Assembly (NCBI RefSeq): GCF_964204865.1
Contig: NC_135255.1
Location: 20,303,135 to 20,367,134 of the forward strand
DNA: 64,000 nucleotides
Origin: Styela clava
Taxonomy: Eukaryota; Chordata; Ascidiacea; Stolidobranchia; Styelidae
Reading direction: 5' to 3'
Positions 1 through 64,000 of this stretch are shown piece after piece. Under the pieces are notes generated by a model, which was not told where the DNA came from, did no database searches, and saw only the letters and a program-made list of their open reading frames with translations. The number at the start of each line of letters is the position of its first letter. The stretch's first letter is position 1. The position numbers and the translations under genes were made by a program.

Positions 1-238
1 TCATAATGAAATAAAGTTTTGTTTACAAATCCATAGATGTTGCATACATGCTTATGGAGTAAGACTTGAAGCCATAGCTATATTTACAATTTCTGATCTT
101 CCGACATTTGAAATTGAATTGTTGGAATCGAAATTTTTAACTGAAACTGTAATAGTAGGCTTGCAAACTGGGTTTTAGCTTCTGCATTCCTGGGTTGAAG
201 CATGCTTCGTGTTAGTTTGTGTAAAACATGAAATTTTC

Positions 239-537
239 GACGCTCCAGAAATATGTGTACCAATATGGAGGTAATTAATTTTGTTGGCACTCCCGTAGTA
301 TGTGAACCAAGATGACGCACAACCTGATAACCCTAACCTGATACACATACTATGTTAAGGTTATGCGTCATCTTGGATCCATATACTACGGGAGCACCAT
401 TTTTCCCCCTACTTCACATCAAGTTGTGTAAAAGGGCTGAAACCTATGGGCAGCGGGTATATTCACTTGGCTAACACAGACAGTGTAATAGAACTAATAT
501 AAGAAAAATCGGAATAAAATTACTGTCTAACCTGGTA
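239..537. mobile_element. MITE of the GCTCCCGTAGTATGTG family (truncated outer copy)
   Basis: The left end reads GACGCTCCAGAAATATGTG. The interior (TATTCACTTGGCTAACACAG and onward) matches the reverse complement of the copy at 10038-10248, also the copies at 34923-35082 and, more weakly, 43438-43665. The right arm is missing after CCTGGTAC. It is interrupted by the inner copy at 286-398. Confidence 0.6.
286..398. mobile_element. MITE of the same family, nested palindrome
   Basis: The two arms GGCACTCCCGTAGTATGTG and its near reverse complement TATACTACGGGAGCACC flank two inward copies of the GATGACGCACAACCT / GGTTATGCGTCATC motif, giving a near-perfect hairpin. The flanks ATTTTGTT and ATTTTTCC could be a decayed 8-bp target duplication. 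Confidence 0.65.
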
Positions 538-822
538 CTAAATACTGCAACAAATTTTCTTTTCAATCCGAAGCCGATTTATGTTAGATTGACTACCATT
601 TGTTCCAGTAGTATAGGGGAAAAAAGCGAACATTGCAATTGCTGAAGGTTATCAGTCCTAATCTGCATTATTATCTTAAATAACTACGAACCAATTACGC
701 AAGGATAATTTATCAAAAATATGTAACTTAATAGGAATTTGAAAATGGAAATGGGCAAATCGAAGTTTAAATCCAAGATGTCTAATATTCCTATATAAAA
801 CATACAAATTACTTTCTTACAG

Positions 823-3800
823 TGCCAACAATAAGAAATGAAGTAGGAAATGTGTCTACAATCATCAATAATTTGACATGGACAAAGCCAACGTTCGATA
901 CAACCCAGACAGAGTCGTCAAAAGGTAAGAAGATATGATATGTTTACTCTAACAATTTTCATATTTATTTTTGTATTTATTCTAACCCAGAACATACCTT
1001 GAATTTCACTTCATACTATTACTCTAATCATTTGCCTAGCCCTAAAGTTTTATATCTATGCTAACCAAGAACATACCGTGAATCCCACTTCATATGCTCA
1101 CTCTAACTACTTGCCCCAAAGTTTCATATCTATTCCAACCCAGAATTACCCATAAAATTCCACTTCATATGCTTTTTCTAACAATTAGCTTTATGTTCTA
1201 TATTTATCCCAGTCCAGAACATAGAATGAATCCCACACCATATGCTTATTCTAACCATTTGCTTGAAGTTTTATATCTATCCTAACCCAGAACATACCAT
1301 GAATTCCCGTACATATGCTTACTATAAGTATTTGCGTATAGTTTTATATCTATCCTAACCAGGAACAAACCATGAATCCCACTCCTTATGCTCACTTTTA
1401 CCATTCGCATAAAATGTTACAACTGTCCTAGCCTGAACATGCCATAATACCCCCCTGATATACTGACCTCGATGCTCTTCACTTTAAGATTTATATCTAT
1501 TCTGAATCGGATACAATGGATTTCAATTAGTAGGCTAACTATTTGCTTAACGTATTGTCCATATTCTTATTTATATCCATGGTCTGTCCCAAAACATTCG
1601 ATTAGTCACTCTTGACAACCATTGTATAAATAAAATTTCCTGTTTAGGTGGTGGAGAAGTTGGGCGGTCTCAATACTCTGTTTTATTTGGTAGTTCTAAT
1701 ACGATACGTAAAACATGCATAAAATTTGCTTAGTTTTGAAAACTCAGAAACAAAATACTTAAAACTTAACCTCAGTGCACACAATTTTGTTTACACTTGC
1801 TTATAGCATCTGTCACACCCCGCCAGTCCACCTCTTAAATAAATGGGCGTTGAGAGAGAAAGTTGTTATCAAAAACTAATTCTGTTGTTGGGGATATTAA
1901 CTAACATTGTATTTCTTTAATACTTAATTATGAGCGATGTATCAATTGATCACCAGTAATGGTGATTGTTTCGGTAGTAAGATATAATAGCACGCAACCT
2001 GCATGTTGTTATTTGCTGCTGTAGACTCTCGTTCCATTATAATCATTAATATAGATGTTTATATCAACAGAAACAGTCAACACTAACACTGAAAGAATTT
2101 TGAGCACAAGCGGAATGAGTCAATCAACTCTGATAATTCTCCTCTCCATACCAGAATTTATCCTCGTTTCAATCATGGTCGTGGCTGGGATTGTATTCTA
2201 CAGAGAAAGACGGTGAGTATTAGGCAAACTAGAATACTAAATCCTAATCGTAAATCTCCATGGTCATATATTTATTCCATCGCCAACCGACAATAACAAA
2301 AAATATGAAACGATATGTGAATTCATAAATTTCATTAGAAACCAAAACTGGTTATCGAACCGGATAAGATATATCATACATTTTGCAATAATAATAGATC
2401 TTGTAGCCAGGTTGTGTGTTACGTTATCATTTTATCCGTGAATATTCTATTCTAATCATGTAAAGAGATCTCAGAAAAGTCACGTGTCATTCTCTATGAA
2501 ACATTGTTACGCAAAGAGGTGACTGTGTAGCCGAGTTATGTCTAAAATCAATCTTACACGTATTAGACGAGATACTACACCCATGAACAAAATTTACATA
2601 CTATATATTTTTACAGATCCCGACTCTCCGCTCAAACCAATACAGCACAGGGAACTGTTTCTAATTCGACTGAAATGAGGAACATCGATTCTGCGAGACA
2701 AAACGGAGGTTCAGGTAATATGATAGTGCGGTTCCATTACATTTGAATCCACGATAATTGCACCTGCATACTATTGCACTTATGGAAGTTTTTTTTTTTA
2801 CGGATATTTGAACCCATACTAACCCTAGCCCATGGGTTTTAGCACCCGCACATGGATTGAACCCGCGGATATACACATGGGTTCAAATGTACGTGGATTC
2901 AAATGTACGGTCACCTGATAATGCGTTCAAACACAAGTCTCCGATAATTACTAATATGCTTAAAAACTGTAGGTAAATATTCATTCGACTTCGACTGCAG
3001 ATTGAGGTCGGTCTCCGACTCCCTAAGTATAAACACTTGTTACCCTGACTCTGCTTTGTAAAAGAGTTCTACTTAGATTCTAAATTAAAACACTGGGGAA
3101 TTCTGATAACAAAAACTTTTGTGCACGCAATCCTCCTTTAATAGAATGATAAGAATGACTAGTAAACGCACTACTATTTGAGTTTTTAAAGAAAATTTTG
3201 TCTTATATTGTCAACATTAAAAGTATGATATCTGACTCCGACCTTGTCAGTTTGAAAATACGATTCCAGTGGAAACATGCCGAACTTCGACTCCATATCC
3301 ATTTAAAAAAAAAACTTCTCACCTCAAAAAGTTTTAAAAACTTATTGCGTGTTTATGATTACTTCCGTTTGAACATGGTTCGTGCTGTTTTTGACTTTTT
3401 CTTACTCAGACATCGATGAAACGACACATATCAGTGCTCAGTTCAGTAGTCACATATCAGATATTTTTAGTTTTACCAATGTCCAGCGTTTTCTAATTAA
3501 CCTAAGACTATTTGTCCTCAGAAACCAATCAAGCCATGTACAATACATGTAACTAGATGTTTGTGACGTAAATCACATCGAGTCTTCTGATTACGTACCA
3601 AGACAAACATTGTCTTGCAGGTGATAAATGATTTAATATTGAATAACGTTTCTGACACATTATGGTACTAAGTTAATACAGTAATATCCCAATACAAAGA
3701 CTAAGATTAACTATATATTCAGGTATTGATGGCTATGAAACATTTCAACCTGTGCCATCTGGTGGATATGAAGAGGTGCAACCAGCAACTGACGGCTACG

Positions 3801-3874
3801 AGAAAGTGCAAATAAGGGCAACAGCTCAGGAACAAGAGAGCGGATATAAAGCCACGTATGCGAATATTGCATAA
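823..3874 (+). CDS. Receptor A, 3' part: stalk, membrane span and class 1 (ITAM-like) tail
   Basis: Exons: 823-924 (stalk), 2071-2212 (transmembrane), 2617-2714 (juxtamembrane), 3723-3874 (tail and stop). Phases run 1, 1, 2, 1 as in the sister genes. The stalk exon has two N-glycosylation sequons (NVS, NLT) and is Thr-rich. The membrane exon reads LIILLSIPEFILVSIMVVAG, with an acidic Glu near its outer end, then YRERR as a stop-transfer signal. The tail has YETF (degenerate against YEEV elsewhere), YEEV, YEKV and a final YANI, which fits the Y-x-N Grb2-SH2 preference. The CUB and signal exons must lie upstream of the window; nothing like them is seen in 1-822. No defect is visible in the part present. 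The intron at 925-2070 carries a tandem repeat. Membrane receptor with tyrosine signalling is inferred from motifs. Confidence 0.72.
945..1455. repeat. Degenerate tandem repeat, ~72-75 bp unit, in an intron of receptor A
   Basis: About six to seven diverged copies of a unit containing TTTTATATCTATCCTAACCC, then AGAACATACCATGAATCCCAC and TCATATGCTCACTCTAACC. Single copies of a similar motif lie in intron 1 of E (about 37080-37180), F (about 42670-42730), G (about 48045-48110) and H (about 54830-54890), so the array looks like an expansion of a family-wide intron element. Confidence 0.65.
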
Positions 3875-12254: not shown

Positions 12255-13742
12255 GTTTGGCAAATATTCAATAAAACATTGTAAAGAATGCAGAAGTTTG
12301 AATTTGCTTTGATATTACTCCTAGGTGAGTATTTACATTGTTATCGACTCTATTGAGGCGCAGCGCCATAAAACTTTTTCGAAATTCGTCGCATTGCTAA
12401 TTTCTGGTATGGCTCAGAGACTTGTTGGACTACTTTCTGTCTCTGGGTAGTTCAAGTACCACTAACCCATCATTTCTCATCATATATTCTCGTTTTCCTG
12501 AACCGTAGGCATACTGGTTGAAGGTAAATTACTCAAAATCAATTTTATAGAAAATTTTCGTTTGACTTTCATGCTGCCAATTTTGTTTGGTGAGATCTTG
12601 ATGATTGACCATCGTCATGTCTATCCTGATAATATTTAAGGTTGAGCGCTGTGTCCGAACATACGCCAACATTGCTATGAATCATTCCTCTTCCCACTCC
12701 TGTCAATTGATCAATAAATCTTCTTGATATTAATTTTGATATTATTCTCAGCTAATTACTACACTCCAGGAATACAACAGAGGACATTTTAATAAGCTCT
12801 TGTACCAAATACTTAATTTGATTTATGGTGTTTTGGGTTTAGTGTGTTGTTTGAGTCAGAGTTATTGACTTCATCTTGGTACAATATTTGCAATAGAATA
12901 TCATATTAATATTATTAACTGTTTTTAGCATTTGTGAATACCAGTGTCGGTCAGTGTGATGGAAAGGAAATGAACACAACATCGGGAAATGGAACTATTA
13001 ATTCCCCAAATATTCCCAACGAATACGGAAAATCAGCAAACTGTTCATGGAAATTTACACCTTTGGGGAGTTACGCTCTCGTTTTGACATTCGTATATCA
13101 AAGGCTCTATATAGTCATGAATTCAAACAAAATAGCCTCACTATAAACAACGGTTAGTACAATATTATAGCTTTGAAATAATTTACACTGCTCACTTACT
13201 CGGAACAAAAAATGGCAATCCTTATTTGGTAAACCCGAACTTTGTTAAGATAATGCCTTCCAACACACAATGGAAAGTCGGCCAGGCTGGGCGTTGCATT
13301 GAAAAAACCCACATTCATCCAATATTACAACGGGACGATTTTTATTCTTTCACCAAAAAAATTATAAGATGGTAAAAAAAACTAAAACACTTGCACTTGT
13401 TGATCGCAAATATGTAATTCATTCACCCGCTAGAGGGGATAGCTTTGCAATTGCCAGGTCAAGTTTATTTTAGCCACAGTTCGTCACTGGTGAGGCAGCA
13501 TCTCTGTCGTAAAGAAAGACTCTTTTCAGCTTTATAAATCGCAGTTGCTGATAACGATATTTATATCACTAACATTTTTAGTCTGGCGTTCTTGGGCAAA
13601 CTTGTATAAAGCATCAACACAAATTATTTTATAAACAAAAAGTCTATAGCTAAGAATATTGTCAACTTCATTGTCAAAGAAAATCTATATCCATATTATC
13701 AATGAAACTGTTTAGAATATTTAAGGTAATAAGTGCTAGCAC

Positions 13743-16700
13743 CAGTGGCGGCGCGTGGTCATTTTGACAACCGGGGCAAGCTACTGCGGGACCAAGTCAC
13801 CCCCATCTACGGGGACAGGATGAGCGCTGTAAGTTCTCCCATCATTTTATGAGTATAAAAACCATTCCGTCGGTAACAACCAATCGGCAAAAGCGACAAT
13901 TTTTAACGATAAGAAAGTGTCTTTAAAACCGGTCCAAGTCAAGGGATTAATGAAAATAGACATAGTTTATTTTGAAACCTCTTTCAAAAGGAAAGGCAAT
14001 ATTTACCCAGATAAATACAATGACATATTAACAGAAACTTCGGGAAAGCAGACAAAACCTAAAATAAGGTTTAAAACGTTACTATGAATAAAGAAAAGAT
14101 AATGCAAAGATAAGGACATGCGTCGCTCACTCATAGATATATATGCTGCTAGACTTCTACTGCTTGAACATATCTGCAACACGCCGCGGTTTCTTGGAAG
14201 CAAAATGCTCAATAACGCGCTGATTAAAGTCATGCATCCCAGAAACAACGTCTCTGTGAATGGATAAAACAGCCAAGGAATTTAATCTATCTTGCTTCAT
14301 TGTGTTTCTGAGATACGTTTTAATACGCTTCAGCGTGCTGAATGTTCGCTCTGCGTCGGCGGAAGAAATAGGCGTCGTCAAAATGATGTCCAGAAATTTT
14401 GCAGACGCCGCATAGGTAGTTACTGGAGTGTTATCTATGAGGAACCCATAGAGCGCGCAAGTTGATGTGATGTTCAAAAAAGTTTGATTGGTGTATATAC
14501 ATCGCAATTCATTTTCCAATTTACCCACGTTTATCATGGGGTAAAATTTGGAGACAGTAGCCAACAAATGGATGGGAAATTGACGTGCAAATTTTGAAAA
14601 ATTTTTGGGGTTCATCAAAGGCAACGCGGCAAGGTGTTCAGTGCGCAGACGATCGCCTATTTGATTCACCAGAATGTCACAGCATTCCTTTGCAGACAGA
14701 ATCAAACGCTGCGTTGTTTGCCCGCGGCGTAAAGAAGCACTCCATGTTTCCCGGATACGAGATACAGCATCACAGAAGTCTGAAATACACGACTGCACAG
14801 ACGCTCCATCCATTAGCCTTGACTGCAATGCGCCGTATAATACATCCACGTGATAGAATATTGTGAAGAAAAAAGCGAGAAAAAATGAAAACTCACCATC
14901 TTCTAGCAGACGCTTTAGACCTGCCGCCTCCCTCACAGAGCGTTCGTCCCAAACCGGAGAGCTTTGAATGCCATTGAAACACTCAATGAGCTCAGACCTA
15001 ATTTCGGACACGCCCTGCACCACGCGTGATTGGAAGTTCCAACGTGTTGGTGCACAAGCTGGGAGACGGCGGCTACATATCTGGCGGAGGAGGTCAGAGC
15101 GCTTCGGCGAAACGGAAAAAAATGAAGAAAACCCCGAAACATTTGCAAAAAATATATGGACGAGAGGGGTATCAAGACACATATTTTTAATAACGAGGTT
15201 AAATTGGTGTGCATAACAATGTAAAAAATGCGCATGAGGAAAATCTTCTTTTATATAAACTTGAACACCATGTTTCGACCCACTCATGACTGCCGCGCCG
15301 TCATAACTTTGAGCTATCAATTTTGACTTCGCGTTGTAAGGCTGTAACACTTCTTTCAGTACAGCCGATATCCCGCAAGCCGTGCGATCAACGATAGGTA
15401 CAAAGCTGTGAAATCTCTGGGTAGGTTTACCATCTTTCACAAACCGAAAAATCATAGCCAGTTGGGAAACGCACGTGATGTCAGTTGTCTCGTCAGACTG
15501 AATCGAAAGGAACTGGCAAATTTCAATTTCCATAGCCAAATGTTGTAAATAAATTTTATACATTGAGTCGAGCAAATCGTTTTGGATATCCTTAGATGTC
15601 CCTTTCGAAACAGTTACGGCATCAAGATGATCTCTCAATACTGTATCTAGGGATGCGGTGTATTCCACCATATCCAAAAATACCCCTCTATTAGAAGAGC
15701 CAGCCCGTTCATCGTGCCCACGGAGGGACAGCTCGTGACAACCAATGAACTTCAAAACATCTATCAATCGACCGAGAACATGGCGGTTTTTCTCGACGTT
15801 TTGGTTGTGCCGACGAATAGAAACCGCGCGTCCTTCATCCAACTGTGCTGCAATATTAACATTTCCGAATGTTCGGTATTTTACTGCATTGTCCAGATGC
15901 TCCATAGAAGATTGATGATCCCTGGCACGCTCGGAAAGATGTTTAAGATCTCTAAAACCAAATTTACACCAACGTGAGTCACGGGCGGTAGCAAAAAGTA
16001 GGCAATAAAAACAAAAAAATGCATTTTTGTCCTCGCTGTAATACAACCATTCGTGTTTTTTATACCAAGTTTCTGCGCAGAATGTACGCCGACGCTTTCC
16101 GTCATGGGATTGTTTCAGTGAACAATTTTTTGGTTGATAAGGCCCAAGACGTTGTACCTCTAATTTTTGTTCCAGCGGCAGCTGCGAAAACGGAGTGCGA
16201 AGTAGTGCATCAACCTTATTCATTATGAGATCTAAGGCTAGGAAATGCGAAGCCGGAAAGAAGTGAGGAGCTCAAAAGGAATGTGGAAAATCGAAAGCAA
16301 ATGGACTAAAGGTCTCTAACTGATTCAAATAGCGAAACAAGCGACAAAAACGAAGGCGAGGAAACTATCAACTCTTCAAGCAACCAACGAACGAAAAGGA
16401 ATGCGTGAATATGTCAACACGTTGTTGTAAGAAACGTCGGCATTGTGTCGTCATAATTTCGGGGCTAGCCCCGATGATTTAGTAAAAGAAACAGAAAACA
16501 AACGAGACAAACGCGGCGAGTGGAAGATAAAAGAGAGAATACGATATACAATGAGCAACCGGGGCAAAATCGGCGTCGCCCCGTCGACGTTCGGCGAAGG
16601 CTTTGCGAGCGAAAAATGAACCATGTCGGGAGAATATGGCTAGTGTAGACAGTCTGTGCAACCGATATTGAGGTATTTTTCGAATATTTTTTATTATACC

Positions 16701-16753
16701 GAAAAAACAACCGGGGCATTGCCCCGGTTGGCCCTATTGACGCGCCGCCACTG
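13743..16753 (-). mobile_element. Complete hAT-superfamily DNA transposon (3,011 bp)
   Basis: The terminal inverted repeats CAGTGGCGGCGCG and CGCGCCGCCACTG are perfect over 13 bp. The target duplication GCTAGCAC occurs at 13735-13742 and 16754-16761 without mismatch. Subterminal CAACCGGGGCA motifs occur at both ends, and at 16709-16731 form a palindrome (AACCGGGGCATTGCCCCGGT). One long minus-strand frame encodes the transposase. Perfect ends and duplication plus an open transposase indicate a recent, perhaps still mobile, insertion into intron 2 of pseudogene B. Confidence 0.93.
14157..16223 (-). CDS. hAT transposase, 688 aa (ZMYM/DUF4371-like)
   Basis: Nuclear enzyme that would excise and insert the surrounding element. 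Residues 48-77 resemble a TTF-type zinc finger (WYKKHEWLYYSEDKNAFFC, then FYCLLF). The catalytic layout of hAT enzymes is visible: first Asp in SIQSDETTDIT (about 244), second Asp in QSYDGAAVMSG (about 308), the HCYAHQ Cys/His motif (about 335-340), TRW at about 393-395, and the C-terminal dimerisation block starting SSADAERTFSTLKRIKTYLR, whose Glu (about 625) fits the third acidic residue. The frame is open for the full length, and 688 aa is usual for this group. The start chosen is the first Met, 16223, inside the element. Family assignment rests on these motifs from memory, not on a search. Confidence 0.92.
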   Translation of the reverse strand: MNKVDALLRTPFSQLPLEQKLEVQRLGPYQPKNCSLKQSHDGKRRRTFCAETWYKKHEWLYYSEDKNAFFCFYCLLFATARDSRWCKFGFRDLKHLSERARDHQSSMEHLDNAVKYRTFGNVNIAAQLDEGRAVSIRRHNQNVEKNRHVLGRLIDVLKFIGCHELSLRGHDERAGSSNRGVFLDMVEYTASLDTVLRDHLDAVTVSKGTSKDIQNDLLDSMYKIYLQHLAMEIEICQFLSIQSDETTDITCVSQLAMIFRFVKDGKPTQRFHSFVPIVDRTACGISAVLKEVLQPYNAKSKLIAQSYDGAAVMSGSKHGVQVYIKEDFPHAHFLHCYAHQFNLVIKNMCLDTPLVHIFFANVSGFSSFFSVSPKRSDLLRQICSRRLPACAPTRWNFQSRVVQGVSEIRSELIECFNGIQSSPVWDERSVREAAGLKRLLEDGEFSFFLAFFFTIFYHVDVLYGALQSRLMDGASVQSCISDFCDAVSRIRETWSASLRRGQTTQRLILSAKECCDILVNQIGDRLRTEHLAALPLMNPKNFSKFARQFPIHLLATVSKFYPMINVGKLENELRCIYTNQTFLNITSTCALYGFLIDNTPVTTYAASAKFLDIILTTPISSADAERTFSTLKRIKTYLRNTMKQDRLNSLAVLSIHRDVVSGMHDFNQRVIEHFASKKPRRVADMFKQ

Positions 16754-19700
16754 GCTAGCACTATATTAAGATACACAAGATTGTTCAAGATTCATTGAAG
16801 ACAAATTTCCGGTTACATTGATTGAGTATTTCGACTCTATGTGCGGTGGCGTCAAAGAGAATAAACCAAGCGTTCACGTTCAGTATATATCAGACGGACG
16901 AGCATATACCGGTTATGAAGTGTTAGGATTAGCAAGGGGTTTCACAATCCAGTACAAGTTTTTACAATGTCCAGAAGATACAGGTGAGACCTATTTAGAA
17001 TTTGAAGAAAATAAAAATGTGCGAAGGTCTGGAGTTATAATTTCGGTATTATTGTCGGTAGTCACAACACCCCAACGCGATGCTACAACTTGCACAAGTA
17101 ACGACATTTTGTCGTTATTAAATTGTTCTCGAATAAATATCAAATTTTCGTTGCAAATAATGCTATACCAGCGCAGTATTGTGTTTTTGGTCGGGGCATA
17201 TATAAAGTTTTATATAATGTAAACTGAATGTGAGACAAGATAGCAATGCTCAAGTATATGGACATGAAAGTCAAAACGAATTTTTTTACCTCTTCGCTCA
17301 TATCCTAAGCAAAGCTGAGAACTGTTGAACAGGTACCCACGATACCGGTATCTGGATTGTCTTAGCTTCCACAGGTCCTGTGACGATGATGATTCATACG
17401 TCCAGCCTGAATAAATACCAAAATGAATTTAGTCACAACTTTAGCATCAAATCTTTTACAGTGTCGGTATGATACCTCACATTCGAATTTGGAAAGTGCC
17501 AGATCGATGAGTGCGATTGCCGAACAGCCACACAGTGGGCAATTTTGGTGACGGCATCGCAAAAATTCAAACTACGTTGCTCATACAGTCCTCATATATT
17601 ATTGATTTTTTTGGTAAATAAAAGTAATAGCCCTCTAGCGACAACAACAAATTTTATCCATTAAAATTTTTAAAGAAATTAGTCTAGTAGCTAAAGAGAA
17701 AAGGGATTATTTTACAATAATAACAACAAGAAAAAAATACGGACAATAACATATTAACAAAACGATCCATATGTCCACTTCGTGTCCCCTAAAAAAAGCT
17801 TTCTTAATGATGCAAACGGCTTATTTGTACTCACTCGACTAAAATGGCGTGACGTGCATTTTATTGCGGAAACGCTAAATTTGAATCAGAAATTTTAGCT
17901 TAGTTTTTCCTTAGAATCAATTCATAATTACGAGTGATGTGTAGAAACAAGAAAGCAAAGACAAATCTTCTACATTCCCTGCTTGTAAATACACAACCCA
18001 CATCGGCTTATATTTTTGTTGCAGCAGCCAGTACGTATCCGGATACAACTAATGCTCCTTCCACTACTGCAAAGTCGGATCCGGTCACTCATACTATCGT
18101 TGGGGCAACTGGAATCAAAATGAGTACTGAAATAGTCACAGCTTCGGACCACTCAATGATCATCCCCTCGAATACTATACTATGAGTAACTGTTTGATTT
18201 TATCATTGTTAATTTGACCTGTGGTTTGAAGATAAGTTCGTTTTCCACGACTATTCATGGGCCCGGTAAATACCCTATTTATTACTCGCCAATGTAAGTT
18301 GGTTGACGTTTATCAATATTGTGTTTTCACAAGTTGGCGTAAACAATATATTTTTCACACTTATTCTTTTTTTCTAATTCGTATATTTTTTGTGTTTGAT
18401 TAAGTGCGCATTGAGCGTTTTTATTCCCTACGTAACTTTTTATCCCCGCGAGATAGCGGCGTGTCTTCCGAGTGAAAGCCGTGGAAATTTAAAAGCATTC
18501 GGAATTTCCTTATCTTACTAAATGAAACATTCGATGTTATGAACAATTCAATGTTTAGAAAGGTTAATGAATGAAGTTTACAAGAAAACCAAATGTCAAA
18601 TATCATGTATTTTCAACAGAAACAGTCAACACAAACACTGACAGAAGTACAAGTGGAATGAGTCGAACAACTCTAATACTCCTCCTCTCTATACCATAAT
18701 TCATTTTCGTTTTACTCATGGTCGTGGCTGGGATTGTATTGTAAGAAAAAACGGTGAGTATTGCATGATTAGAAATATAACCATTTACCTCATTGAAATA
18801 ATTACGTTTACTGTTCCTTCATGACCTGACGATGCGTGTTTGCAATCGGGTTCGGATTGTCGATGTTTTGATTTGGTTGATTGCCACTATCTATTTGTGC
18901 TACTGGAATCCATGTGATAAACGGAATTTTAGAAAATTTATGCTACGTAATATGAGACAACATGAATCATGCTACGTAATGTGGGAAAAATGTAATTTGT
19001 GTCCCAGTTCTGTCACTCCTATAATTTTAAGAACGAAAAGATCTTTATTTACTATTACATTCATAAATTTACCTAAGTTCAGTTGGAATGTACATGGTTT
19101 GGGTTGCTATTACAAATAACTACTTTCTCTCGACGCGTCACTGTAATTTCTAGCGCTTAATAATCTTCGACTTTAACATTGATGACATTTGCATCTTACG
19201 GAAATATTCTGAATATTACCTTTATAAATTGAGCCGATGTAAGATGATATACTTGATATTTTCAAAGATCTCAACGCTCAGACCATGTCAAGACAGCACA
19301 GGGGACTGTTCCTAATTCTACTGAGATGGAAAACATCAGTTCTTCGGGACGAAACGGAATGCCAGGTAATTTGTTAGTAATTGGCATTGAGATATGCTAG
19401 AAAGCTGTACTTTTTGTAGCAAACCGTTTCAAAATCTTGAGGTGTTTTTGTTATTTTCGTTCCTCAACGCTCGGTATTTTTTGTTTATCACTCGGATGTC
19501 ATAGAAACAACTCTCATGTTAGTGCTTTGTTTTCCTTCCGATATTAGATATTTCCGAATTACGATTTCAGCAACGTCCGGCTCATTTTGAACTATCAATA
19601 TTTCTCGATAGAACTAATTCGAACTAGATCAGTTCTTATCTAATATTCCTGACAAAGTAAAACTAACCGTTGGGTGCTTAAGTTAAAATACCACTATCCT

Positions 19701-20098
19701 ACAACAAAAACAATAAAGTATATGAAATACAGAATTAGATTTAAAATGTATTCAGGTACTGATGGCTACGAAGAAGTTCAAACTGGGCCATCTGGTGGAT
19801 ATGAAGAGATACAACAAGCGACTGATGAATACGAGAAAGTGAAAATACAGGCAACAACTGAGGAACAAGCAAGCGGATATAAAACCACTAATGCGAACGT
19901 TGCATAAAAGCCTATAGACAGACATTGTCAACAATAATGTAAAAAAAATTACTTTTCGACGGATTCCCCACCCACTTTTCTACCACCCACTTCTTTTCAA
20001 AGACTTCATACGCATTCATTCGTCGCCGTCAAATTATTTCCCGTTTCAGCTGAACAAAAATGTTTCGTGTTTCATCTCGTTCGAATGATTACTAAGAG

Positions 20099-30593: not shown

Positions 30594-30630
30594 CTTCCCA
30601 TTTAGATCGAAATAAATTAATCTAGTGAAC

Positions 30631-38463: not shown

Positions 38464-38645
38464 CAGGGGAGTGCAACTAGCTATACCTGAGCTTGTGCGA
38501 AGCTAGCAAGGTATGTCATAACATCAATTACCAACGTTTTTGTACCTGCAACTATTAGAAATCATATATTGAATAAAGGTGCAGGTCGCGGTTTTGCCCA
38601 GATGTTTGTATTTGTCCCTCCTGTATTAAAGGTTGCACACCCCTG
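38464..38645. mobile_element. hAT-type MITE in an intron of receptor E
   Basis: The termini CAGGGGAGTGCAACTAG and GGTTGCACACCCCTG are inverted copies. Flanks TTCTATAA / TTCTAAAA match 7 of 8 bases. The interior matches the right part of 27140-27509, so it is a shortened member of that family. Confidence 0.75.
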
Positions 38646-42397: not shown

Positions 42398-42428
42398 ACT
42401 AAGACGAAATAGATTAGTTTGATAAAAC

Positions 42429-46423: not shown

Positions 46424-47824
46424 AAATCGAAAGACAAACATTGTGCAACAATACAGTAAAAGATTTTTTTCATCGACCGACTTCCTAACTACAAAGCTTT
46501 TCTATTACTCACTCCAGTGTGGAATTTTAAACGACTTCACAGGGTTGGGTGGTAACTGACTCCAATGACCGCATGGTCGTATCGTTGCCACCCAGTATGT
46601 ACCGAGAACTTTTATATTTCAATCTAATTTCATTTTGTTGTGTATATGTTTCTGGTGGACGAACAAAATAAACTTTCGCATACGTATGAATTTGTCGTCG
46701 TAAAATTATTTCATACTTGAACCGAAATGTTTTAAAATTTGTTTGAAAAATTAGTATCACATTCAAAAATTTAAATAATTTTGACCAAAGAAAACTTTCA
46801 TTGAAATGAAAAGCTATTCAAATTTGCTTTATGTTTGATCCATTTACGTATTAGTTCTATTAATATTTGCTAATTATAAAGTTTTATACGTTTTTGACAG
46901 TCTTTCAAATATTTCACGGGTATAAGTAAGTTGCTGTTACCATCTCGGTGGTCGTTTGTAAATATCCGCTTGATGCATTTTAATTGATAATAGAAACAAT
47001 GCTTTGCTTAACCTGTATTAAATGAACTTTGTTGGACTTAAATGAACTTTGGGAATGGGAAAACTTCTTTTTCATACTTTATCTATTTTACTTATTATTA
47101 TCAACTATACAAAATCAAGCTTCATTTTAGAAAGACCAAATCAAAGAAATAATGAAATGAAGCCAATGTCCTTAGAATGAACTAAGTCAATCTCAATCGA
47201 GACAGTCCAAAGCAAGTAAGAGAAATTTCCAAGTAGTCACCAACGATTCGTTCACTCTTAGCAAGACTATGGCTTCGAACTCTGGTCTCCAAATTGGATT
47301 GGCACTTCACGTATATGGATTCAACTAAACCCCTTGCTTACACAGTTATTGATGTTCAAGAGCCGGTTTCCGGTTCGGAGTAGCCTGACAAATAGGCCAA
47401 GTCCGACCGAAAGTCAATAGGTGTCATTCTATGACATTTATTTATCAATTAAACATAAGTTTCTGCAACTTACTTGTGAGAATTTGCATGTGTATTATAT
47501 ATTAATAAAAACTTATCGATTGAACTTCAAGGGTGAATAATTTGGCGACGTCGTGGTTCCGGATATCAGACCAGGGATATGAATACGCATTGCTATGGCG
47601 CCACATTATACATTTTCAATATGTGTTGTTTAGACTATTTTCGCTCCGAACAAGTCCGTGTATAAGCAGTAATTTGATATGCATGGTACTATATTTCAGA
47701 GGACCACAAGCTTCCCATCTAGCAGTGTTCACTAATTTATTGTACTTTGAGCGAGATCAAAAAATGGGTGGCAATGTTTTGCACAAGACCTTTGGTGGGT
47801 CACGGCGTCAACCCTTACGGGTTG
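46424..47824. other. 3' flank of F and class 1 downstream block
   Basis: AT-rich flank similar to 19908-21000 and 33691-34300, then the class 1 block (about 47110-47300), then a segment at 47520-47820 (GCGCCACATTATACATTTTC) related to 22130-22400 and 51060-51300. It runs directly into the truncated first exon of G. No gene seen. Confidence 0.5.
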
Positions 47825-50550
47825 ACGGGTCGTTGATCACCATCTTAATTTTAGGTGAGTAAACTTACCAAATATCAATAATTAATTGTATTTTAACTAA
47901 GCAATAATCTAATAAACAACGTTGACATAAATTTCCTCCATACTTCTGATTAATAAACTTGTATTTCTCATATTTCATCAATAGCTTTCATCTCACTTTA
48001 GTAAAATTCGTCAGAAAACTAGTCGTAGGAAATAAAATACTGCAATATGATGTCAATACTAACCAATCGTTCAAAGTTTTATGCCTATACTAATCGAAAA
48101 GACATATATTCTTATTTAAATCGAAAACCAAAGGATTCTGCCAAACCGAAACTATTACTATTCTTTCTACTATCGCATTCCCGTTACTGCTTAGAAAAAC
48201 AGAATATAAAATTTTTTATTGTCATTTTTTGTCATCCAGGAACTGCAGTCGGTAGCCATGGTTAATGTGATAGAAGTGATATGAACATAACATTAGGAAA
48301 AGGGCGAATTAAGTTCTCCAAATATTCTCAGAAATACGGAAAATCAGCAAATTGCTCATGGAAATTTATTCCTTCGGAAGGTTACGCTGTTGTGTTAACA
48401 ATCACGTATAAGAGGCTTTATAATATTGCAAACTGGAACAAACTATGCTTGGGATCTTACAGGCTTATGATAAAAAAACGGTAGGATGAATGAAAATTGT
48501 TTTGATCTCCTTCATCTGATCTTGGTCAATTATTTTAAGAGTTGAAAGATATTTACCCCCAAACAAATATTTAAATTACATAACTTCAATATGCAATCTT
48601 TGTCATCACATCAAGGAGAAGTTAAGTAATATCTTAATTTGTACCTCTCCATGCCCGACGCTCTAGAAAACTAGAGCAAAATGACTGCGATACGCAAGAA
48701 TGTACGAGATACAAACATCTTACTGCATTGATCGAACCTTTTGAATACTTCGACTCTATGTGTGGTGAAGACGCCGGAAATAAGCAAAGCGTTCATGTTC
48801 AGTATATATCGGACGGACGAACATATACCGGTTCGGGGACAGTGGCGACTTCTGTAAGGGGTTTCAGTATCCAGTATATACAAGTTTTCACAATGCCCCA
48901 CAGTTACAGGTAAACATGCTAAATATTGTTCATTTATGAATTATATACATTTAAACAAAGAAAAGTAATAATGCACACTTATGATGATTTCCATGACCAA
49001 TATAATAGATAGATTCAAATCATCTCCAGATTTTTTTTACTGATTTTGATTCCCAACAAGTGATGAGAAGTGCTTCATGTCACGTGATAGGAATAACTCT
49101 AAATCGAGTTTAACCTCGATTTTCTTGTGTGTGTGTTTCTTGTAACAATGTGTACAGGAAAGTAAAGCAGCATTTCATTTATTTTCATCATCATGCAGCA
49201 ATCCCCTGCCCGAATACAACTAATGCTCCTATTACCACACAATATCCGGGTTATCCTACAACTGACGAAGCCACCACGGGTGAAACTTTACGCTGTAAGG
49301 TGGGATCCGGACACTCATACATCCGATGAGACAACTGGGATCGAAAAAGGGAATGAATTAATCACAACGTCTGACAAGTTAACATTGAAAACTACCATGG
49401 GTAGTACCAGCGGTAGAAATTTTTGAATGGGTGTGTGTAGTTGTTTGCATACTCAGTACGTTTTGTGTATGGCGTTTACTGTATTACTGATTAGTCGATC
49501 GCTAGATATTTTGAAGATTTTGGGCGATTGCAGCCAAAAGCAGGTTGGCCACCCCTGTTATACAACGTTATGTATTTTCAACAGAAACAATCAATACAAA
49601 CACTGATAGAATCTCAAGCACAAGCGGAATGAGTCAAACAACTCTAATTCTCCTCCTCTCCATACCCGAATTCATCTTCGTTTTACCCATGGTCGTGGGT
49701 GGGATTGTATTTTACATGAAAATACGGTGAGTATACTTCATGCTTAGAAATACAGCCGTATACCCATTGAAATAACCGATAAATATTGTATTTTATATTC
49801 AGGTATTGTGCCCACTATTAATTAAACAAATCATCCTAAACTTCAAGCTAAATATTATAGATTTACTCAACTGCCACATTGACGACATTCGTGTCCTATG
49901 AAAATATTCTAAGGACTACCTTTATAGATGAAGCTGATGTGATATTATATATTATTATTATTTTAGATCACAACGTTCAGACCATGCCAGCACAGCACAA
50001 GGGACTGTTTTACTAATTCTACTGAGATCGGAAACATCAGTTCTACGGGACAAAACGAAACGTCATCTGGTGATGTGAGATATGCTAGGAAGCTGAACTT
50101 TCTTCGCTATAACGTTTTAAAAACTGGGGTTTTATTGATGTTTTAGATTTTCAACGCTTGTTATTGTCGTCATTTAGGCGTCATTGGAACAAATCTCGTA
50201 ATATTAGTTTGTTTTCCGTTCTAGTGTACATGTTTCTGATTTCAGCAATGTCCGCGTATATTTCGCATTTTGAACTCATTCTAACCGACGTAAATAACTG
50301 ATGTAATATTAATTGATGTTTCCGAAAAAGTAAGGTACTAAGCAAAAACATTCCTATCTTAATACAGAGGTAATAGGATTCATGATATATATTCAGATAC
50401 CGATGGCTACGGAGAAGTTCAAGCTGGGCCCTCTGGTGGATATGAAGAGATACAACCAGCAACTAATGAATACGAGAAAGTGCAAATAAGGGCAAATAAC
50501 TCACAAACAAGACGCCGGATATAAAGCCACGTATATGAACGTTGCATAAA
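47825..50550 (+). pseudogene. Receptor G, class 1 CUB receptor pseudogene without a start
   Basis: Exon remnants: about 47825-47854 (signal exon lacking its ATG), 48240-48480 and about 48691-48909 (CUB), 49199-49400 (stalk), 49585-49726 (membrane, open), 49967 to about 50064, 50397 to about 50550 (tail). Defects: the start codon and 5' module are replaced by repeat sequence (CGTCAACCCTTACGGGTTGA, also near 51270-51297); CAG of the first CUB Cys motif is TAA; the exon 3 acceptor AG is CG; a 4-bp insertion in exon 3; a deletion in the stalk; a frameshift in the juxtamembrane exon; and a frameshift after YEKV. The first tail tyrosine reads YGEV. Clearly dead. Confidence 0.85.
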
Positions 50551-54422: not shown

Positions 54423-54447
54423 AACTAAAAAGATTAATCGAATTAAA

Positions 54448-57400
54448 ATGATTTGGTCGTTGATCGCCATCTTGATTCTAGGTAAAGTTATATAAGTGTT
54501 ACTAATTAATTATATTCTAACTTAGCAATAAACAAACAAACAACTTTGACAGAAATTTATTCTATATCTCGGATAGATAAACTTTTATTTCTTATTAATA
54601 GTCAACCAGTAATCATTTTTCCTCTCATTCTTATTTCGGAGCTCCAAAAGTATGTGCACCAAGATGGCGCACAACCTGAACATAGTATGTGTGTACCGGT
54701 TTGGATTCAGGTTGTGTGACATCTTGATGCACATACTTCTGGAGAACCATCATTTCATTTATAGCTTTCGTCGAAATTTGGAAAAATCTGTCAGAAAACA
54801 ATTCGTACGAAATAAAATAATGTACTATGATGCTAATCATTTGTTCAAAGTGTTATGCCTATACTAATCCAGAACACATCAAATCTTATTAAAATAGAAA
54901 ACTGAAGGCTTACTCCTGACCATTCTACTATCGCATTCCCGTTACTGCCATGAAAAATTTCCTGATAGCATATACAATTATCTCATTGTCATTTTCTGAA
55001 TCCTAGGCGCTGTAGCCCGTGGCAATGGTCAATGTCATGGAGAGGCGATGAGCATAACATCAGAAAACGGCGAAATAGATTCTCCGGATTATGATAACGA
55101 ATACGGAAAATCAGCAAATTGCTCATGGAAATTCACTCCTGCGGAAGGTTACGCTCTTGTGTTAACAATCACGTATCAGAGGCTTTATATTCTTGACATA
55201 ACGAGCAACAATAATCCAAAAAAATATTGTTTGGGATCGTACAACCTCACTATAAACAACGGTTGGTATCATATTATTAGAAAATAGTTTTAAAAGATCG
55301 ATTCCCTGTACGACATATGCCAATTCCGATTTTTCTTGGGGGCGTTTAGGTCACTCGAGATTTCGAATTTACTAATATCGATGTGGTGAAGCGTCCACCT
55401 TGCTTTAGGCATTGGTGAATATAATTGAATTAAAAGAACGTCTTGGGGTAATTGGTTTGATCGCATAGAAGTATTTCGCAAAGTGATTTGCTATTTTACC
55501 TTGCGCATGACAAAACTGAAAGAATTTTATTCAGATACTCAGGAATGTAGGAGATACATTGATACCAGATATTCTACTACAATGCCCTTTCAATATTTCG
55601 ACACGATGTGCGGTGAAGACAAAGAAAATAAATCAAGTGTTCATGTTCAGTATATATCTGATGGACGAACATATAACGGTACTGAAAAAGTGCAAACCGT
55701 ATCAATGGGTTTCAGAATTCATTACAAGTTTTTAGAATGTCCCACGACTGCTGGTAAATATTGATGAAAACATAGACAAACCGTAAATTAAGCTTTTATC
55801 CTTTTAACTATACATAAAATTTCTTCGACTTTGATGAGTACCTCGCTTTGCGTAAGAATTGTAATTTCGAAACTAATATGAAAATGCATACATTTTTTTA
55901 TTCGAATGAAGACGAATCCGCAATTATACAAAAATAGCAGTTTCAAGCAATTACCTTAAAAAATATACTTCACCTTGATATAATCCTTTTCTTAGAAACA
56001 ACAACTGATCATGTCCTAACAAGTATTTTGGAAGGAAGCTCCTACATAGAACAAACAGGTACCACCTTTGAGGACAACCGTACTCTTTCTACTAAAGGTA
56101 AGTAGGTACCCCATGGACGTTTGCTGCAATGCGTACAATCAAGACTACACAGGCTCTGGCAACAATAAAAACTTCCATTTTTATTGTAATGATTTTGTTA
56201 ATTACATCAGGTAAATTAAATATCGCGAAAATCAAAACCTTGGTAAGTCAGGATTGGAAAAGCCATTATTTTTTAACAATGTTTGTCAGGCTATGGTTCA
56301 CAATTTAGGACAGAATTCGACTGCAATGAAAATCGTAAAAGATCCCAATAGATTTATCACATTACGGGTCAGTTGGCGCATGATATCGTAATTCAAAAAT
56401 TTATTATCAATATTTAATTGCGTTGGTAAATTGTTTTCTTAAGTTTTATTAAAAATGGAACCAACCATAAACCATACAATGATGGTGTCGGGTTTCAAAA
56501 CCAATACAAGCCACTTTATTAATGTTATTATAACAGACACAGAAAACAATGACGTTGGAACTTTCAGCGAAACTGACGGCGCCAACTCACATGGAATAAG
56601 TGATACTGCAAAGCTTTTCCTCGTTTCTATCCCAGGATTCATTGGCATTATATTACTTGCGGTGACTGCAATCGTATTCTGCAGAAAGAGAATGTAATTA
56701 ACTCTTATTGAGTACTTCCTTGATTAGCCAATAAATATTTGTCTTGGTTATATACGTAAAGAAATACCAACTGGTCAAATGAAGCGTAAGCTAAACGGAT
56801 ATATTGCATGGGTGCAATGACCTAGTGGGGATGGCGTCGGACTGTAAGAGTCGTTGATATTATATTTCATATACAACCGTACACCAGCCATCTAGTAACT
56901 TATACATTCGCAATCGCGAATCATTATTATTATCGTGACTGCCTGTCGGGAACCTTGTTCATAGGAAAGTCTAAAAACGCCTATAGCGGCAGAATTCATC
57001 CAAGATAGGATTATATGAAATCGTTGTATACGGTCAAGTCGAATATGATTAAAACAACAAAATATAGGTCCCGAATATCATCGTAATAATATAAGAATAT
57101 TTGTTAACAGGGACAAATATCAAGAAAACAAAAATGTCGAACAAGACAATGTAGGCGGAAATAAGATGGAAAATGCTGAATCTCCAATCAAAGAATCGGA
57201 CCAAGACACTGCTGCAGGTAAGAACTTATTTAATGGATCTTAATACGAGAACACATTCCAGGTTGACTAAAATCTTATATCTAAAACTTGCTCTTTTATT
57301 TTAAAAACGTTTCACTCTCGAAAGGAAGCATAGAGTACAAAAAACTAAGCTTTATAAGCCTTGAACATCATGAATTCTTACGGAAACGACAGTGTACGGT

Positions 57401-57915
57401 TGTTTTGATTGAAAAATAATTGTCAAGTTGCAAAGTCATAAAAATTTGCCTAAAAACAGGAACAGTTTAAATCAAAGCGAAATTAAATATCAATGCTTAA
57501 TTCAGCTGAAAATGATGAACCGGCAAATTCAACAATTCAAGATGAGGAAGGTCCATATACTATCATGTATTCTGCACTTTCACGACAAGACGAAGAAGGT
57601 AATAAAAAGAGAACCATATGTGGTAGACTGAATATTTTGACGACAAAAACATACCAGTGATAAAGATTACAAATTAATAATTTAATGCGTTTACATAACG
57701 TGACATATATTAATGTTTTTAGAAGCATTTTGCATTGGCCTAAGCATCCTTGAAATCGCAGGTAGAAATATTTCGATACATCAATTACCATATATACTTT
57801 TATTTCAGATGTGAAGGAAAACTCAGAAATTAAAGAAGACGGGCACAAATACGACATGTATTCAGCCGTTGTAAGAAAGATAGAAAGAGGTGACAAAGAG
57901 ACGATTCATGTGTGA
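54448..57915 (+). CDS. Receptor H, intact class 2 (ITIM-like) CUB receptor, 357 aa
   Basis: Exons: 54448-54481 (signal MIWSLIAILILG), 55007-55261 and 55535-55753 (CUB), 55996-56097 (short stalk), 56537-56693 (membrane), 57111-57217, 57506-57598, 57809-57915 (tail). The total is 1,074 bases in one open frame. The CUB holds NCSWKF, CLGSYNLTINNG, SSVHVQYISDGRTYNGT and GFRIHY. The loop before CLGSY is the longest in the cluster (LDITSNNNPKKY). The stalk has one sequon (NRT). The membrane span is LFLVSIPGFIGIILLAVTAI, then FCRKRM. The tail has PYTIMYSAL (ITIM consensus) and, about 24 residues later, KYDMYSAVV, spacing typical of tandem SHP-recruiting motifs; it ends IHV. A splice acceptor (AG at 54421-54422) lies 25 bases before the ATG. 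Inhibitory function is inferred. Confidence 0.88.
54640..54748. mobile_element. MITE of the GCTCCCGTAGTATGTG family in intron 1 of H
   Basis: AGTATGTGCACCAAGATGGC and its inverse form a hairpin of about 109 bp, closest to the copy at 5980-6083. Confidence 0.6.
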
Positions 57916-60966: not shown

Positions 60967-60991
60967 GAAGAAAATGATTAGTCTAGTTAAC

Positions 60992-62777
60992 ATGGTTTGG
61001 TCGTTGATCGCCATTTTACTGCTTGGTAAGTAAAGTAGGGAAATACTGTATAAATAATCAATTGTATTCCCAATTAAAGAATGAACTAACAAACGACGTA
61101 AACAGAAATTCCTTCCAGTCTTATCGTGTCTATGGTTTGGGTCGGATGTTTGCATTTACCACATTTCATAGATAAAATCTTGTCTTTCCCGAGAAGACGT
61201 AACGTTTAACAGGCTTTGACGCGAAGCGTAGCAATTTCCATGATTTCTTTTAACTAAGAACATATCATTAAATTCTATTTACCTACGAGCCGTATGCTTC
61301 AAAGCAGTTTTTCGAGGTGGTGTGGGATTTTAGCCTTGCAATTTTCTGCTTTCTAGGAATGGTGATCGGTATCAATGGTCAGTGTGATGAAAAGCAGATG
61401 TACATAACATCAGGAAATGGCGAAATAAGTACTCCGAATTATCCCGAGAAATACGCTTCAAAATATCCTGATGAATATGGAAGATCGGCAAATTGCTCAT
61501 GGAAATTCACTGCTACGGAAGGTTACGCTCTTGTGTTAACATTCACATATCAAAGACTTTATATCGTAGAAAACAAGGAAAAGAGATGTTTGGGATCGTA
61601 CATGCTAACAATAAATAGCGGTAAGAGACATATGAATTGCATTTTTCCAATTTACTTATTCATGTTCCGTGTCAGATGAGATTTTCAACAAAAAATAAAA
61701 TTTCAAAACTACTCACATTTCTCTACGACAAGGCTTTCTTAATATGAATGGGTAAAATTTATCAACACACCTAAGAAAAAGTAAAGAGCAAAATGACGGT
61801 GACTAGATTGGTAGCTCATGCGAAATATGTACTATTTAATACAGACATACAAGAATGTATGCGATACGTCGATACAGCATATCCACTCACAGTGATTAAA
61901 CCGATTGGATATTTCGACTCTATGTGCAGGGGAACACGGAATAAATCAAGTGTTCATGTTCAGTATGTATCTGACGGACGAACATATACCGGTTCGGGAG
62001 CGACGACTACAGGAATGGGTTTTAAAATTCAGTACAAGTTTTCAAAATGCCCGACATTTGAAGGTAAACATATCGAATATTAGTTTATATAACGTATAAA
62101 ATTTTTCAAAAATATTGTCTGTAGGAACTAAATATGGAAATAAATACTCTATGGCCCAAGCTTCGTTAATTAATATTTCGAGCTCTTGTATTCGAAGCTT
62201 GAAAGGTTTTCATTAAGTCAAGCATGGTAGTAAGAAGAAGATAATTGTATCAAATTTCATTGTTGGACACAAAGTAGACTCAATGGATTTTGTTAAATTC
62301 TTATCGTTGTTGTTGGGATGATTTTTATTGTTTGGAGAAATCGCGACTAATCGATTTCTAATTTTCTGTGCTTAGAGAAGAAATAAATCACTGGTCAATC
62401 TAAATGAGGAAGCTCCGTATACAATCATGTATTCCGCTCTTGCACGAAAAGAAGAAGAAGGTAATGAAAGAAAACCATATGTGATAGACTAAATATTTTG
62501 AGGACAAAAACATACTATTGATAAAGATTGTAAATGAATAATTTAAAAAGTGTGAATTGAATGCGGTTACATACAAGGACATATCGTTCAAAGTTTTGGT
62601 CTGAGCTCCCTTGAAATTGCAGAAATAAATATATTTAAGAAATCAATTAACATAAATACTTCTATTTCAGATATAAAGGAAAATGCAGCAATTGAGGAAG
62701 ACGAGCATAAATACGACATGTATTCAGCCGTTGTACGAAAGACTGAGGGAGGTGACAAAGAGACGATTCATATGTGA
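60992..62777 (+). CDS. Receptor I, class 2 relative lacking a membrane exon; predicted secreted CUB protein
   Basis: Exons: 60992-61025 (signal MVWSLIAILLLG; an in-frame ATG at 60974 would add MISLVN), 61357-61620 and 61845-62063 (CUB), then an acceptor at 62374-62375. Splicing there gives three codons and TAA (62384-62386), so the predicted protein is about 175 aa with no membrane span. The CUB is intact (NCSWKF, CLGSYMLTINSG, SSVHVQYVSDGRTYTG, GFKIQY), with an extra YPEKYASKYPDEYG duplication. The 62376 exon fuses the start of a stalk exon (compare CTTAGAAACAACAACTGAT in H) to the middle of the ITIM exon (PYTIMYSAL still readable, 62401-62460); stalk, membrane and juxtamembrane exons are deleted. 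The last tail exon (62671-62777, KYDMYSAVV, ending IHM) survives but is beyond the stop. Either a soluble form or a decaying gene. Confidence 0.72.
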
Positions 62778-64000
62778 TCACCCGACAGTTGTCCTGCTTT
62801 TTCATACGATTACTGCCTGCTTATGTTTTAGAAATCTGCCTTGCTGTTAAGACCTTGATCCTCAAAATATAACCCAAGCTTATAGTTAAAGTGAGAAGGG
62901 GTACTGGGAAATATTAGACACGTTTGCTTAATTGTTGTTTGTCTTTGGCACTCGTGTTACTTTTGTAATTGGGGTTGTTTTTTTGTGATTAATTACAGGG
63001 CCAATCGCATTCAAATCTTTTATCATAAGCTAAAAAGATAATGATGACAAACTTCTATAGGATCTCTGAAACCTTTTGTTTCACCCACATTTTTTCCGAT
63101 TTTCCATCTTACACTATCCGTGAGCTTTCGTCCATCGAAATAAGGCAGTTCACGGACTCGGCAGCAGTCCCCCCTCCGGTTTTGTTCATTTATTTCAATG
63201 TTTTATATTAGTATTGGACTCATTAATATTAACAATTTTTCAAGAATTTTATCGACTTACTACGTTTCGTATATGGGTTTCCCAACTATTTCTGGGTTCC
63301 TTTCTACTCATCCCCCTTTAATTGAATTAACTGAGCAAGGCAGATCACGATTCGTGAATATTTTCATAATTATCTAATCATTCAACGTAATATGCTCGCA
63401 ACTATAATCCTATTATTTTAACTTTCTCCGCTTGGGCTGAAACTTTTCTCACATTGTAATAATATTTGTCCTGCTGCATTCAAACTAGTCTTTGTATTTT
63501 CAACCTTCGAAATATTCCACACAGTTGTAAGGTGAACAGGAAAATGTTAGATGTAAATTAAAATGTAAATTTTGCCGTTAGCAAAACAAAATAAGTAGTC
63601 AAATTTGGCGGCGTGGAATAATAAACTAAGTCGTTAATGGTGGCGAAATATAGTGACATCTAAAAATGCGCACAATCAGAATAGAATCCATGTGAATTCT
63701 CAGATGCTCGAATGAATTTTTTTTAAATTTAAGCAAAAATCATAATCGAGATTTCAAATGCGAGCCGGCGATCAAATTCGGTCTCCAAAATAAATTCGGT
63801 CTCATAACACTCACAACTTTTTGAAAAAAATGTGACCATTACCGTTCTGTTGCATTGACCAGTACTTTTCATCGCAAGCAATTCATTATAAGGATGGTTC
63901 ATAACCCTCACGATTGTACTTCCGTTGCTTATTCCAAGATGTTTCAATATTTGATAACGATACGCGATGTGATCGTTCGAAACCTGTAGAATGATATTGT
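62778..64000. other. Class 2 3' block after I, segmental duplicate of 28114-29370
   Basis: The whole stretch is collinear with the flank of C, down to TTCATAACCCTCACGATTGT and TTCGAAACCTGTAG at its end. No gene is seen. The similarity looks higher and longer than to the flanks of E or H, suggesting the C and I flanks share a recent duplication. Confidence 0.6.

Follow-up and report, generated by a model that had tools for sequence, protein, structure and literature searches.

A tandem cluster of CUB-domain receptor genes with two alternative tyrosine tails in Styela clava suggests a paired receptor family

Introduction

The paired receptors of vertebrates, among them KIR, LILR/PIR, FcR-like and SIRP, are built on Ig domains, and the activating forms of KIR and FcR borrow a subunit that carries the immunoreceptor tyrosine-based activation motif (ITAM). 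Here, we describe nine tandem copies (A to I) of one receptor gene, all on the forward strand of a 64-kb stretch of the Styela clava genome (NC_135255.1, positions 20,303,135 to 20,367,134; hereafter the window). This family uses a CUB domain instead, and one of its two tail classes, class 1, bears a tyrosine tail of its own. At the level of sequence, the comparisons demonstrated the exon plan, the CUB match, the two tail classes and the discordant histories of the two gene halves, whereas an inhibitory class 2, an activating class 1 and an immune setting are suggested by the motifs and by the behavior of similar families.

The nearest described likeness is found in Botryllus schlosseri, also of the Styelidae, whose FcoR genes form a clustered multigene family of type I receptors with tyrosine-motif tails (PMC12065747). 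FcoR combines Ig and sushi domains with tails that carry an immunoreceptor tyrosine-based inhibitory motif (ITIM), a hemITAM (half ITAM) or a core Y-x-x-I/L/V motif, and it pairs with a fester gene (PMC12065747), whereas the Styela ectodomain is a single CUB. Botryllus ampullae were found to express homologues of nearly every ITAM/ITIM pathway protein, except LAT and slp-76 (PMC12065747).

The Alr ectodomains of Hydractinia are Ig-like. Like the Styela family, Alr belongs to an invertebrate; its genes are candidates for allorecognition and contain ITAM and ITIM domains (PMC12065747), but the host is a cnidarian. CgIgIT2 of the oyster Crassostrea gigas, likewise from an invertebrate, is a membrane receptor that itself contains an ITAM and has an immune role, but it has five Ig domains and, in the parts of its description available, no inhibitory partner class (PMC11999971). 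The hemITAM consensus of receptors such as CLEC-2 and Dectin-1 is DGYxxL, a single tyrosine module after an acid and a glycine (PMC3819593). The DGYxx module also occurs in Styela class 1. Class 1 differs from these receptors by having V or I at Y+3, several copies of the module, a C-terminal tail, and a CUB rather than a C-type lectin domain.

A first-pass annotation, made from the window sequence alone, knew of no described family with CUB domains and paired tails, and indeed none of this kind occurred in the titles and abstracts of the literature searched, whose coverage excludes preprints and most subscription journals; in the text of PMC12065747, the string CUB occurred four times, always inside journal digital object identifiers. 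For Botryllus schlosseri, a system of equivalent logic built on Ig and sushi domains has already been published.

Results

Nine tandem copies follow one exon plan

From A to I, the copies follow the class order 1,1,2,1,2,1,1,2,2, so the one-strand cluster of nine related copies read by the first-pass annotation was confirmed. An intact copy comprises a signal exon, two exons that form one CUB, at least one stalk exon rich in Thr/Ser, a membrane exon and tail exons, and the tails are of two mutually unrelated tyrosine types on copies otherwise alike in plan. In the splice models of F and H, the reading frame was open throughout, all introns were GT-AG, and five of six (F) and six of seven (H) introns were in phase 1. 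The plan claimed for all nine copies therefore stands for the intact ones; a membrane exon in every copy, also claimed, does not, because it is deleted in I. C, F and H are open, as is A across the part that lies in the window. Further full-length members of both classes (P0002, P0003, P0005 and P0010) are annotated elsewhere in the genome, on a contig that equals that of F in length (24.3 Mb); these and the other P-labelled proteins and LOC identifiers are NCBI predictions. Allelic or haplotype duplication was ruled out as the origin of the nine copies, since DNA identity between gene stretches is about 69-89%; it reached 91-94% in two stretches close to copy A, of 32 and 45 bases, and both lie inside dispersed repeats.

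The two halves of the gene have discordant histories

DNA blocks of the eight copies B to I were then compared in all 28 pairs, the 5′ block starting 400 bases ahead of the signal exon and running through CUB exon 2, and the 3′ block running from the stalk (in I, from the earliest tail exon still present) to roughly 600 bases beyond the stop codon. The 3′ blocks were alike in 12/12 same-class pairs and in 0/16 cross-class pairs. The 5′ blocks, by comparison, were alike in all 21 pairs among B, D, E, F, G, H and I, 12 of them cross-class, and the 5′ block of H (class 2) was nearest by bit score to those of D, G and F, all class 1. The 5′ block of C was alike in one of its seven pairs (39 bases, with E). 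Homology between F and H ends 11 bases past the CUB exon 2 donor, that between C and E begins 21 bases ahead of the stalk exon, and cross-class homology ceases within some tens of bases past CUB exon 2. With E, C is alike from the stalk onward; with H, it is alike only from the membrane exon, because the stalks of C and H differ. On these sequence comparisons, the receptor gene is composed of two exchangeable cassettes with discordant histories, the change falling at the CUB-stalk intron; given that this intron is in phase 1, a swap there keeps the frame. Similar ectodomains joined to two distinct tails, within one cluster, is the combination by which paired receptors are recognized, and the sequence contains it. 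Both classes also share a similar block some 220-315 bases ahead of the start codon (F, 42114-42196; D, 30328-30413; H, 54159-54222), a possible common promoter element that would allow co-expression of both classes.

Phylogenetic trees of the two protein regions were compared as well. The ectodomain tree of 15 proteins separated C, P0005, P0011 and P0012 (alpha, a grouping named after the sequences had been inspected) from the 11 others (beta) with a split of 97/97; two of its 12 inner branches were starred, and the class labels were ordered on it no better than shuffled ones, 281 and 457 of 500 shuffles being as low. The membrane/juxtamembrane tree separated the two classes with a split of 100/100, and a constraint uniting C, P0005 and P0011 on it was rejected (approximately unbiased [AU] test, p = 3e-10). 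This discordance indicated that alpha ectodomains occur with class 2 (C, P0005) and with class 1 (P0011), and beta ectodomains with both; P0005 and P0011 lie outside the window, and their exon joins are those of the predicted proteins.

Rates of nonsynonymous and synonymous change (dN and dS) were estimated by the Nei-Gojobori method in 48 exon-segment comparisons, which are point estimates on short segments and include pseudogenes. The ratio was undefined in six comparisons and below 1 in 41 of the 42 others, 33 of which lay within 0.2-0.5; the exception was the membrane exon of A and D (1.42). Gene-wide positive selection on the ectodomain was not seen, dN/dS being 0.21-0.47 among E, F, H and I. 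Between the CUB exons of C and the beta copies, silent changes were saturated or undefined in 8/8 comparisons and dN was 0.45-0.62, whereas the membrane exon of C is close to those of E and H (dN 0.06 and 0.09). C combines a highly divergent CUB with an ordinary class 2 tail.

The ectodomain matches a single CUB domain

The Pfam CUB model (PF00431; gathering cut-off, 21.4 bits) matched F at 35.5 bits and I at 31.3 bits, and P0001, P0002, P0003, P0009 and P0010 also scored above the cut-off. The alpha members fell below it (C, 16.2; P0007, 15.4; P0005, 19.1; P0011, 20.0; P0012, 20.8 bits). In a predicted fold of poor confidence (mean predicted local distance difference test score, 43), residues 17-159, encoded by both CUB exons, aligned with CUB-bearing proteins in all 50 matches listed per fold search, the CUB content of these being judged from their titles or from what is generally known of them. 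An Ig or sushi ectodomain as in FcoR was ruled out by a Pfam scan of ten proteins, in which neither domain was matched at E up to 0.1; weak matches to TMEM154 and to other families were under the cut-off and were discarded. Protein searches with two spliced models yielded Styela clava proteins only among the matches listed (10 and 7), but such a search requires shared five-residue words, so the lack of relatives in other species is weak evidence. The matches listed in a profile search were nine Styela clava proteins and two with cubilin names (E = 2.7e-8 and 1.6).

Two unrelated tails carry different tyrosine motifs

Fifteen tails were scanned, seven of class 1, seven of class 2 and that of P0012, with the tails of G (frameshifted) and I outside the scan. 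The class 1 tail of F reads DGYEEV...GGYEEI...DGYEKV...GYKATYVNV. The pattern first ascribed to class 1, namely YEEV/YEEI/YEKV plus Y-x-N, holds overall and breaks in three copies: in A, the first site is YETF and the second YEEV; in G, the first is YGEV; and B has lost the Y-x-N tyrosine. An ITAM relaxed to allow V was present in 7/7 class 1 and 0/7 class 2 tails, and matches to D/E-G/E-Y (DGYEEV, DGYEKV, DEYEKV and DEYEVV) had V at +3 every time. Y-x-N occurred in six of the seven class 1 tails. Four Y-x-x-[ILV] sites, as in F, were rarely reached by shuffling its tail (p = 0.0005; 100,000 shuffles), and across six class 1 tails compared, tyrosines 1-3 were kept in 6/6 and tyrosines 4 and 5 in 5/6 each.

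The class 2 tail of H reads PYTIMYSAL...KYDMYSAV, and the exon sequences of C, E, H and I all contain I-M-Y-S-A-L/I plus M-Y-S-A-V, in agreement with the I-x-Y-x-x-L/I and MYSAV originally reported for these four. The ITIM pattern [ILV]xYxx[LIV] matched six of the seven class 2 tails scanned, and the exon of I has an ITIM too; Y-x-x-M overlapping the ITIM tyrosine region was present in all seven. At least one ITIM match arose in about 10% of H-tail shuffles, so the case for the ITIM rests on its conservation across copies and not on the match itself.

The membrane segments also differ between the classes. A mid-membrane glutamate (SIPEFI) is present in 6/8 class 1 rows, B having a stop codon there and P0011 lacking the glutamate, whereas class 2 has glycine at this position and glutamate in 0/7 rows. 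Vertebrate ITAM adaptors typically have acidic residues in the membrane, and class 1 might, to judge from this residue, signal via a membrane partner. P0012 (LOC144411712) is a distant relative with an alpha-type CUB, located on a different contig (24.9 Mb) from F (24.3 Mb); in its short tail, YEEI and YENL stand four residues apart, and it may represent an older form of class 1.

Discussion

A CUB-based paired receptor family is the favored reading

Taken together, the proteins would be single-pass type I receptors made of a CUB recognition cassette (upstream region, signal peptide and two CUB exons) and a signaling cassette (stalk, membrane helix, tail and 3′ flank) that comes in two alternatives. 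The class 2 tail, once phosphorylated at its ITIM tyrosine, would recruit SH2 phosphatases and inhibit; the class 1 tail, which has two or three acidic Y-E-x-I/V sites, P0011 having more, and ends in Y-x-N, would engage Src/Syk-type kinases and Grb2 and activate. Cells could then weigh the two signals from ligands on similar CUB domains, in the manner of mammalian paired receptors, and immune or self/non-self surveillance would be the likeliest use. We consider it fairly probable that the locus encodes such a paired activating/inhibitory family on a CUB ectodomain, evolving by tandem birth and death and likely serving immune or self/non-self functions. An invertebrate paired-receptor system on CUB was also what the first-pass annotation had proposed; the proposal fits the data, and cassette exchange supports it more strongly than the evidence then cited, while its count of nine genes did not hold, its ITAM-like label needs V to be allowed at Y+3, and the immune role would follow by analogy.

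A bolder proposal, to which we give slightly less than even credence, is that CUB lineages, at least two (alpha and beta), move between opposite signaling cassettes via the one phase-1 intron, so that a single recombination flips the sign of the response, and that the logic of vertebrate natural killer (NK) receptors and Botryllus FcoR allorecognition was invented independently on CUB in a solitary relative of Botryllus. If paired signaling did evolve on CUB in a solitary ascidian, with Ig/sushi receptors in the colonial Botryllus, the inhibitory/activating tail pair would be the conserved part and the recognition fold the replaceable one, which would bear on the origin of NK-type and allorecognition receptors. 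The cassette intron would also offer a concrete mechanism by which an inhibitory receptor becomes an activating one with its ligand specificity kept.

Several observations weigh against a paired-receptor family. The strict ITAM, YxxL/I-x6-12-YxxL/I, and the hemITAM, DGYxxL, each matched 0/15 tails; a canonical ITAM and a canonical hemITAM are thus ruled out for class 1 by zero matches in the scanned tails, the earlier label ITAM-like survives only with V at Y+3, and the class 1 sites are, on sequence grounds, nearer to hemITAM-like or core Y-x-x-I/L/V motifs that occur in repeats. P0005, a class 2 protein, has F at Y-2 and fails the ITIM pattern, and P0011, whose long class 1 tail has about ten tyrosine sites, is the sole class 1 tail of the seven to match it and does so four times, so the motif alone cannot separate the classes. 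C and P0011 were flagged as long branches in the ectodomain tree, on which class 1 as a single clade stays acceptable at the 0.05 level (AU p = 0.065). A ligand shared among copies is made less certain by the first CUB exon of F, which has only 55-82% protein identity to those of other copies. Furthermore, B, D, E, G and I (5/9) carry lesions, indicating that the window holds a birth-and-death cluster rather than nine working genes; by sequence, the nine reduce to three or four apparently open ones within it. Finally, the Y-x-x-hydrophobic sites could act as endocytic signals.

This last point leads to the idea that these are endocytic or scavenger receptors, in which the sites would be AP2-type sorting signals, the CUB would bind cargo as in cubilin-type uptake, and the two tails would route trafficking differently. 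YEEV, YEKV, YSAL and YSAV all fit the sorting pattern as it is generally understood, and the sole two non-Styela matches listed in the profile search were those with cubilin names; even so, repeated acidic DGYEE, a Y-x-N end and I-x-Y-x-x-L exceed what sorting is known to need, and two conserved alternative tails on common ectodomains are atypical of uptake receptors, so we regard such a role as unlikely. Adhesion or growth signaling in development, the tunic or gamete contact, with both tails recruiting Grb2 or PI3K-type proteins and neither inhibiting, would account for the Y-x-N of 6/7 class 1 tails and the Y-x-x-M at the ITIM region of 7/7 class 2 tails, but tandem turnover, pseudogenes and cassette exchange mark recognition families, and developmental receptors are usually stable; it seems to us improbable. 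That the cluster has largely decayed, its few open genes acting singly and the interleaving being a by-product of tandem duplication, agrees with five disabled copies among nine and is just as doubtful, given that C, F and H are open, that both classes have more annotated full-length members (P0002, P0003, P0005 and P0010) and that dN/dS is below 1 in nearly all defined comparisons.

Individual copies and other features of the window

Coordinates are collected in Table 1. The stalk of A is 56-68% identical to two stretches of P0011, so A may join an alpha CUB to class 1. The C model (405 amino acids) shares 396/405 residues with P0007 (LOC120332059), and the splice model of F is identical to LOC120332060 (P0009) over all 365 residues. 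H corresponds to LOC144424639, whose isoform X2 (P0001) is identical except for 25 residues missing from the end of CUB exon 2. E matches isoform X2 of LOC144424570 (P0008, 257 amino acids), which begins downstream of the E stop codon; this stop may be a sequencing or assembly error. The exon end of E at 40323 was taken from P0008 plus sequence comparison. In C (27689-27808) and E (40207-40323), the ITIM exon extends to a donor downstream of that in H and encodes eight more residues after the ITIM; P0007 and P0008 use the same donor. In I, the signal exon and both CUB exons are open, and the stalk, membrane exon, tail exon 1 and the start of tail exon 2 are deleted; with a retained intron after CUB exon 2 (61844-62090), a soluble CUB protein is possible, the stop lying eight codons on.

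Table 1. Receptor copies and the transposon in the window
Feature	Class	Position	Strand	Exons and state
Copy A	1	823..3874	+	3′ part only, ectodomain beyond window start; stalk 823-924, membrane 2071-2212, tail exon 1 2617-2714, tail exon 2 3723-3874
Copy B	1	12288..19907	+	Pseudogene; signal from 12288, CUB exon 1 ~12929-13152 (frameshift), CUB exon 2 ~16771-16983, hAT transposon between CUB exons, stalk from ~18025, membrane ~18620-18753 (two in-frame stops), last tail exon 19756-19907
Copy C	2	23688..28113	+	Open, divergent (alpha) CUB; exons 1-9: 23688-23739, 24169-24411, 24691-24903, 25685-25837, 26085-26156, 26366-26519, 26891-26997, 27689-27808, 28010-28113
Copy D	1	30631..33690	+	Pseudogene; stop in CUB exon 1, shift at membrane exon end, broken stalk
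Copy E	2	36240..40611	+	Single stop codon in CUB exon 2, otherwise open; 36240-36273, 37287-37529, 37861-38076, 38265-38417, 39236-39386, 39827-39933, 40207-40323, 40505-40611
Copy F	1	42429..46423	+	Open, 365 amino acids; signal 42429-42462, CUB 42852-43091 and 43953-44168, stalk 44499-44714, membrane 44990-45131, tail 45797-45894 and 46272-46423
Copy G	1	47824..50549 (ends approximate)	+	Pseudogene; start ATG absent, stop and frameshift in CUB exon 1, frameshifts in CUB exon 2 and tail exons 1 and 2
Copy H	2	54448..57915	+	Open, 357 amino acids; 54448-54481, 55007-55261, 55535-55753, 55996-56097, 56537-56693, 57111-57217, 57506-57598, 57809-57915
Copy I	2	60992..62777	+	Remnant; last tail exon 62670-62777
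hAT transposon inside copy B		13743..16753	-	Transposase open reading frame 14157-16271 (-), open for 704 amino acids

The transposase frame of the hAT element matched the Pfam families DUF4371 and Dimer_Tnp_hAT; the element has terminal inverted repeats CAGTGGCGGCGCG and is flanked on both sides by the 8-bp target duplication GCTAGCAC. Scans of the window for tRNA genes and Rfam families gave no matches. At 6732-7911 lies a 54-bp tandem repeat of about 22 copies with 96% matches; because its unit is a multiple of three, the reverse strand is open for 439 amino acids, and this frame is probably no gene. Short dispersed repeats with GTAGTATGTGCACCAAGATGGCGCACAACCTGA-like ends, perhaps a miniature transposon, occur in both orientations near 295-390, 6000-6070, 43440-43670 and 54650-54735, and a repeat of about 146 bases has three copies in the window, at 22121, 47560 and 51036.

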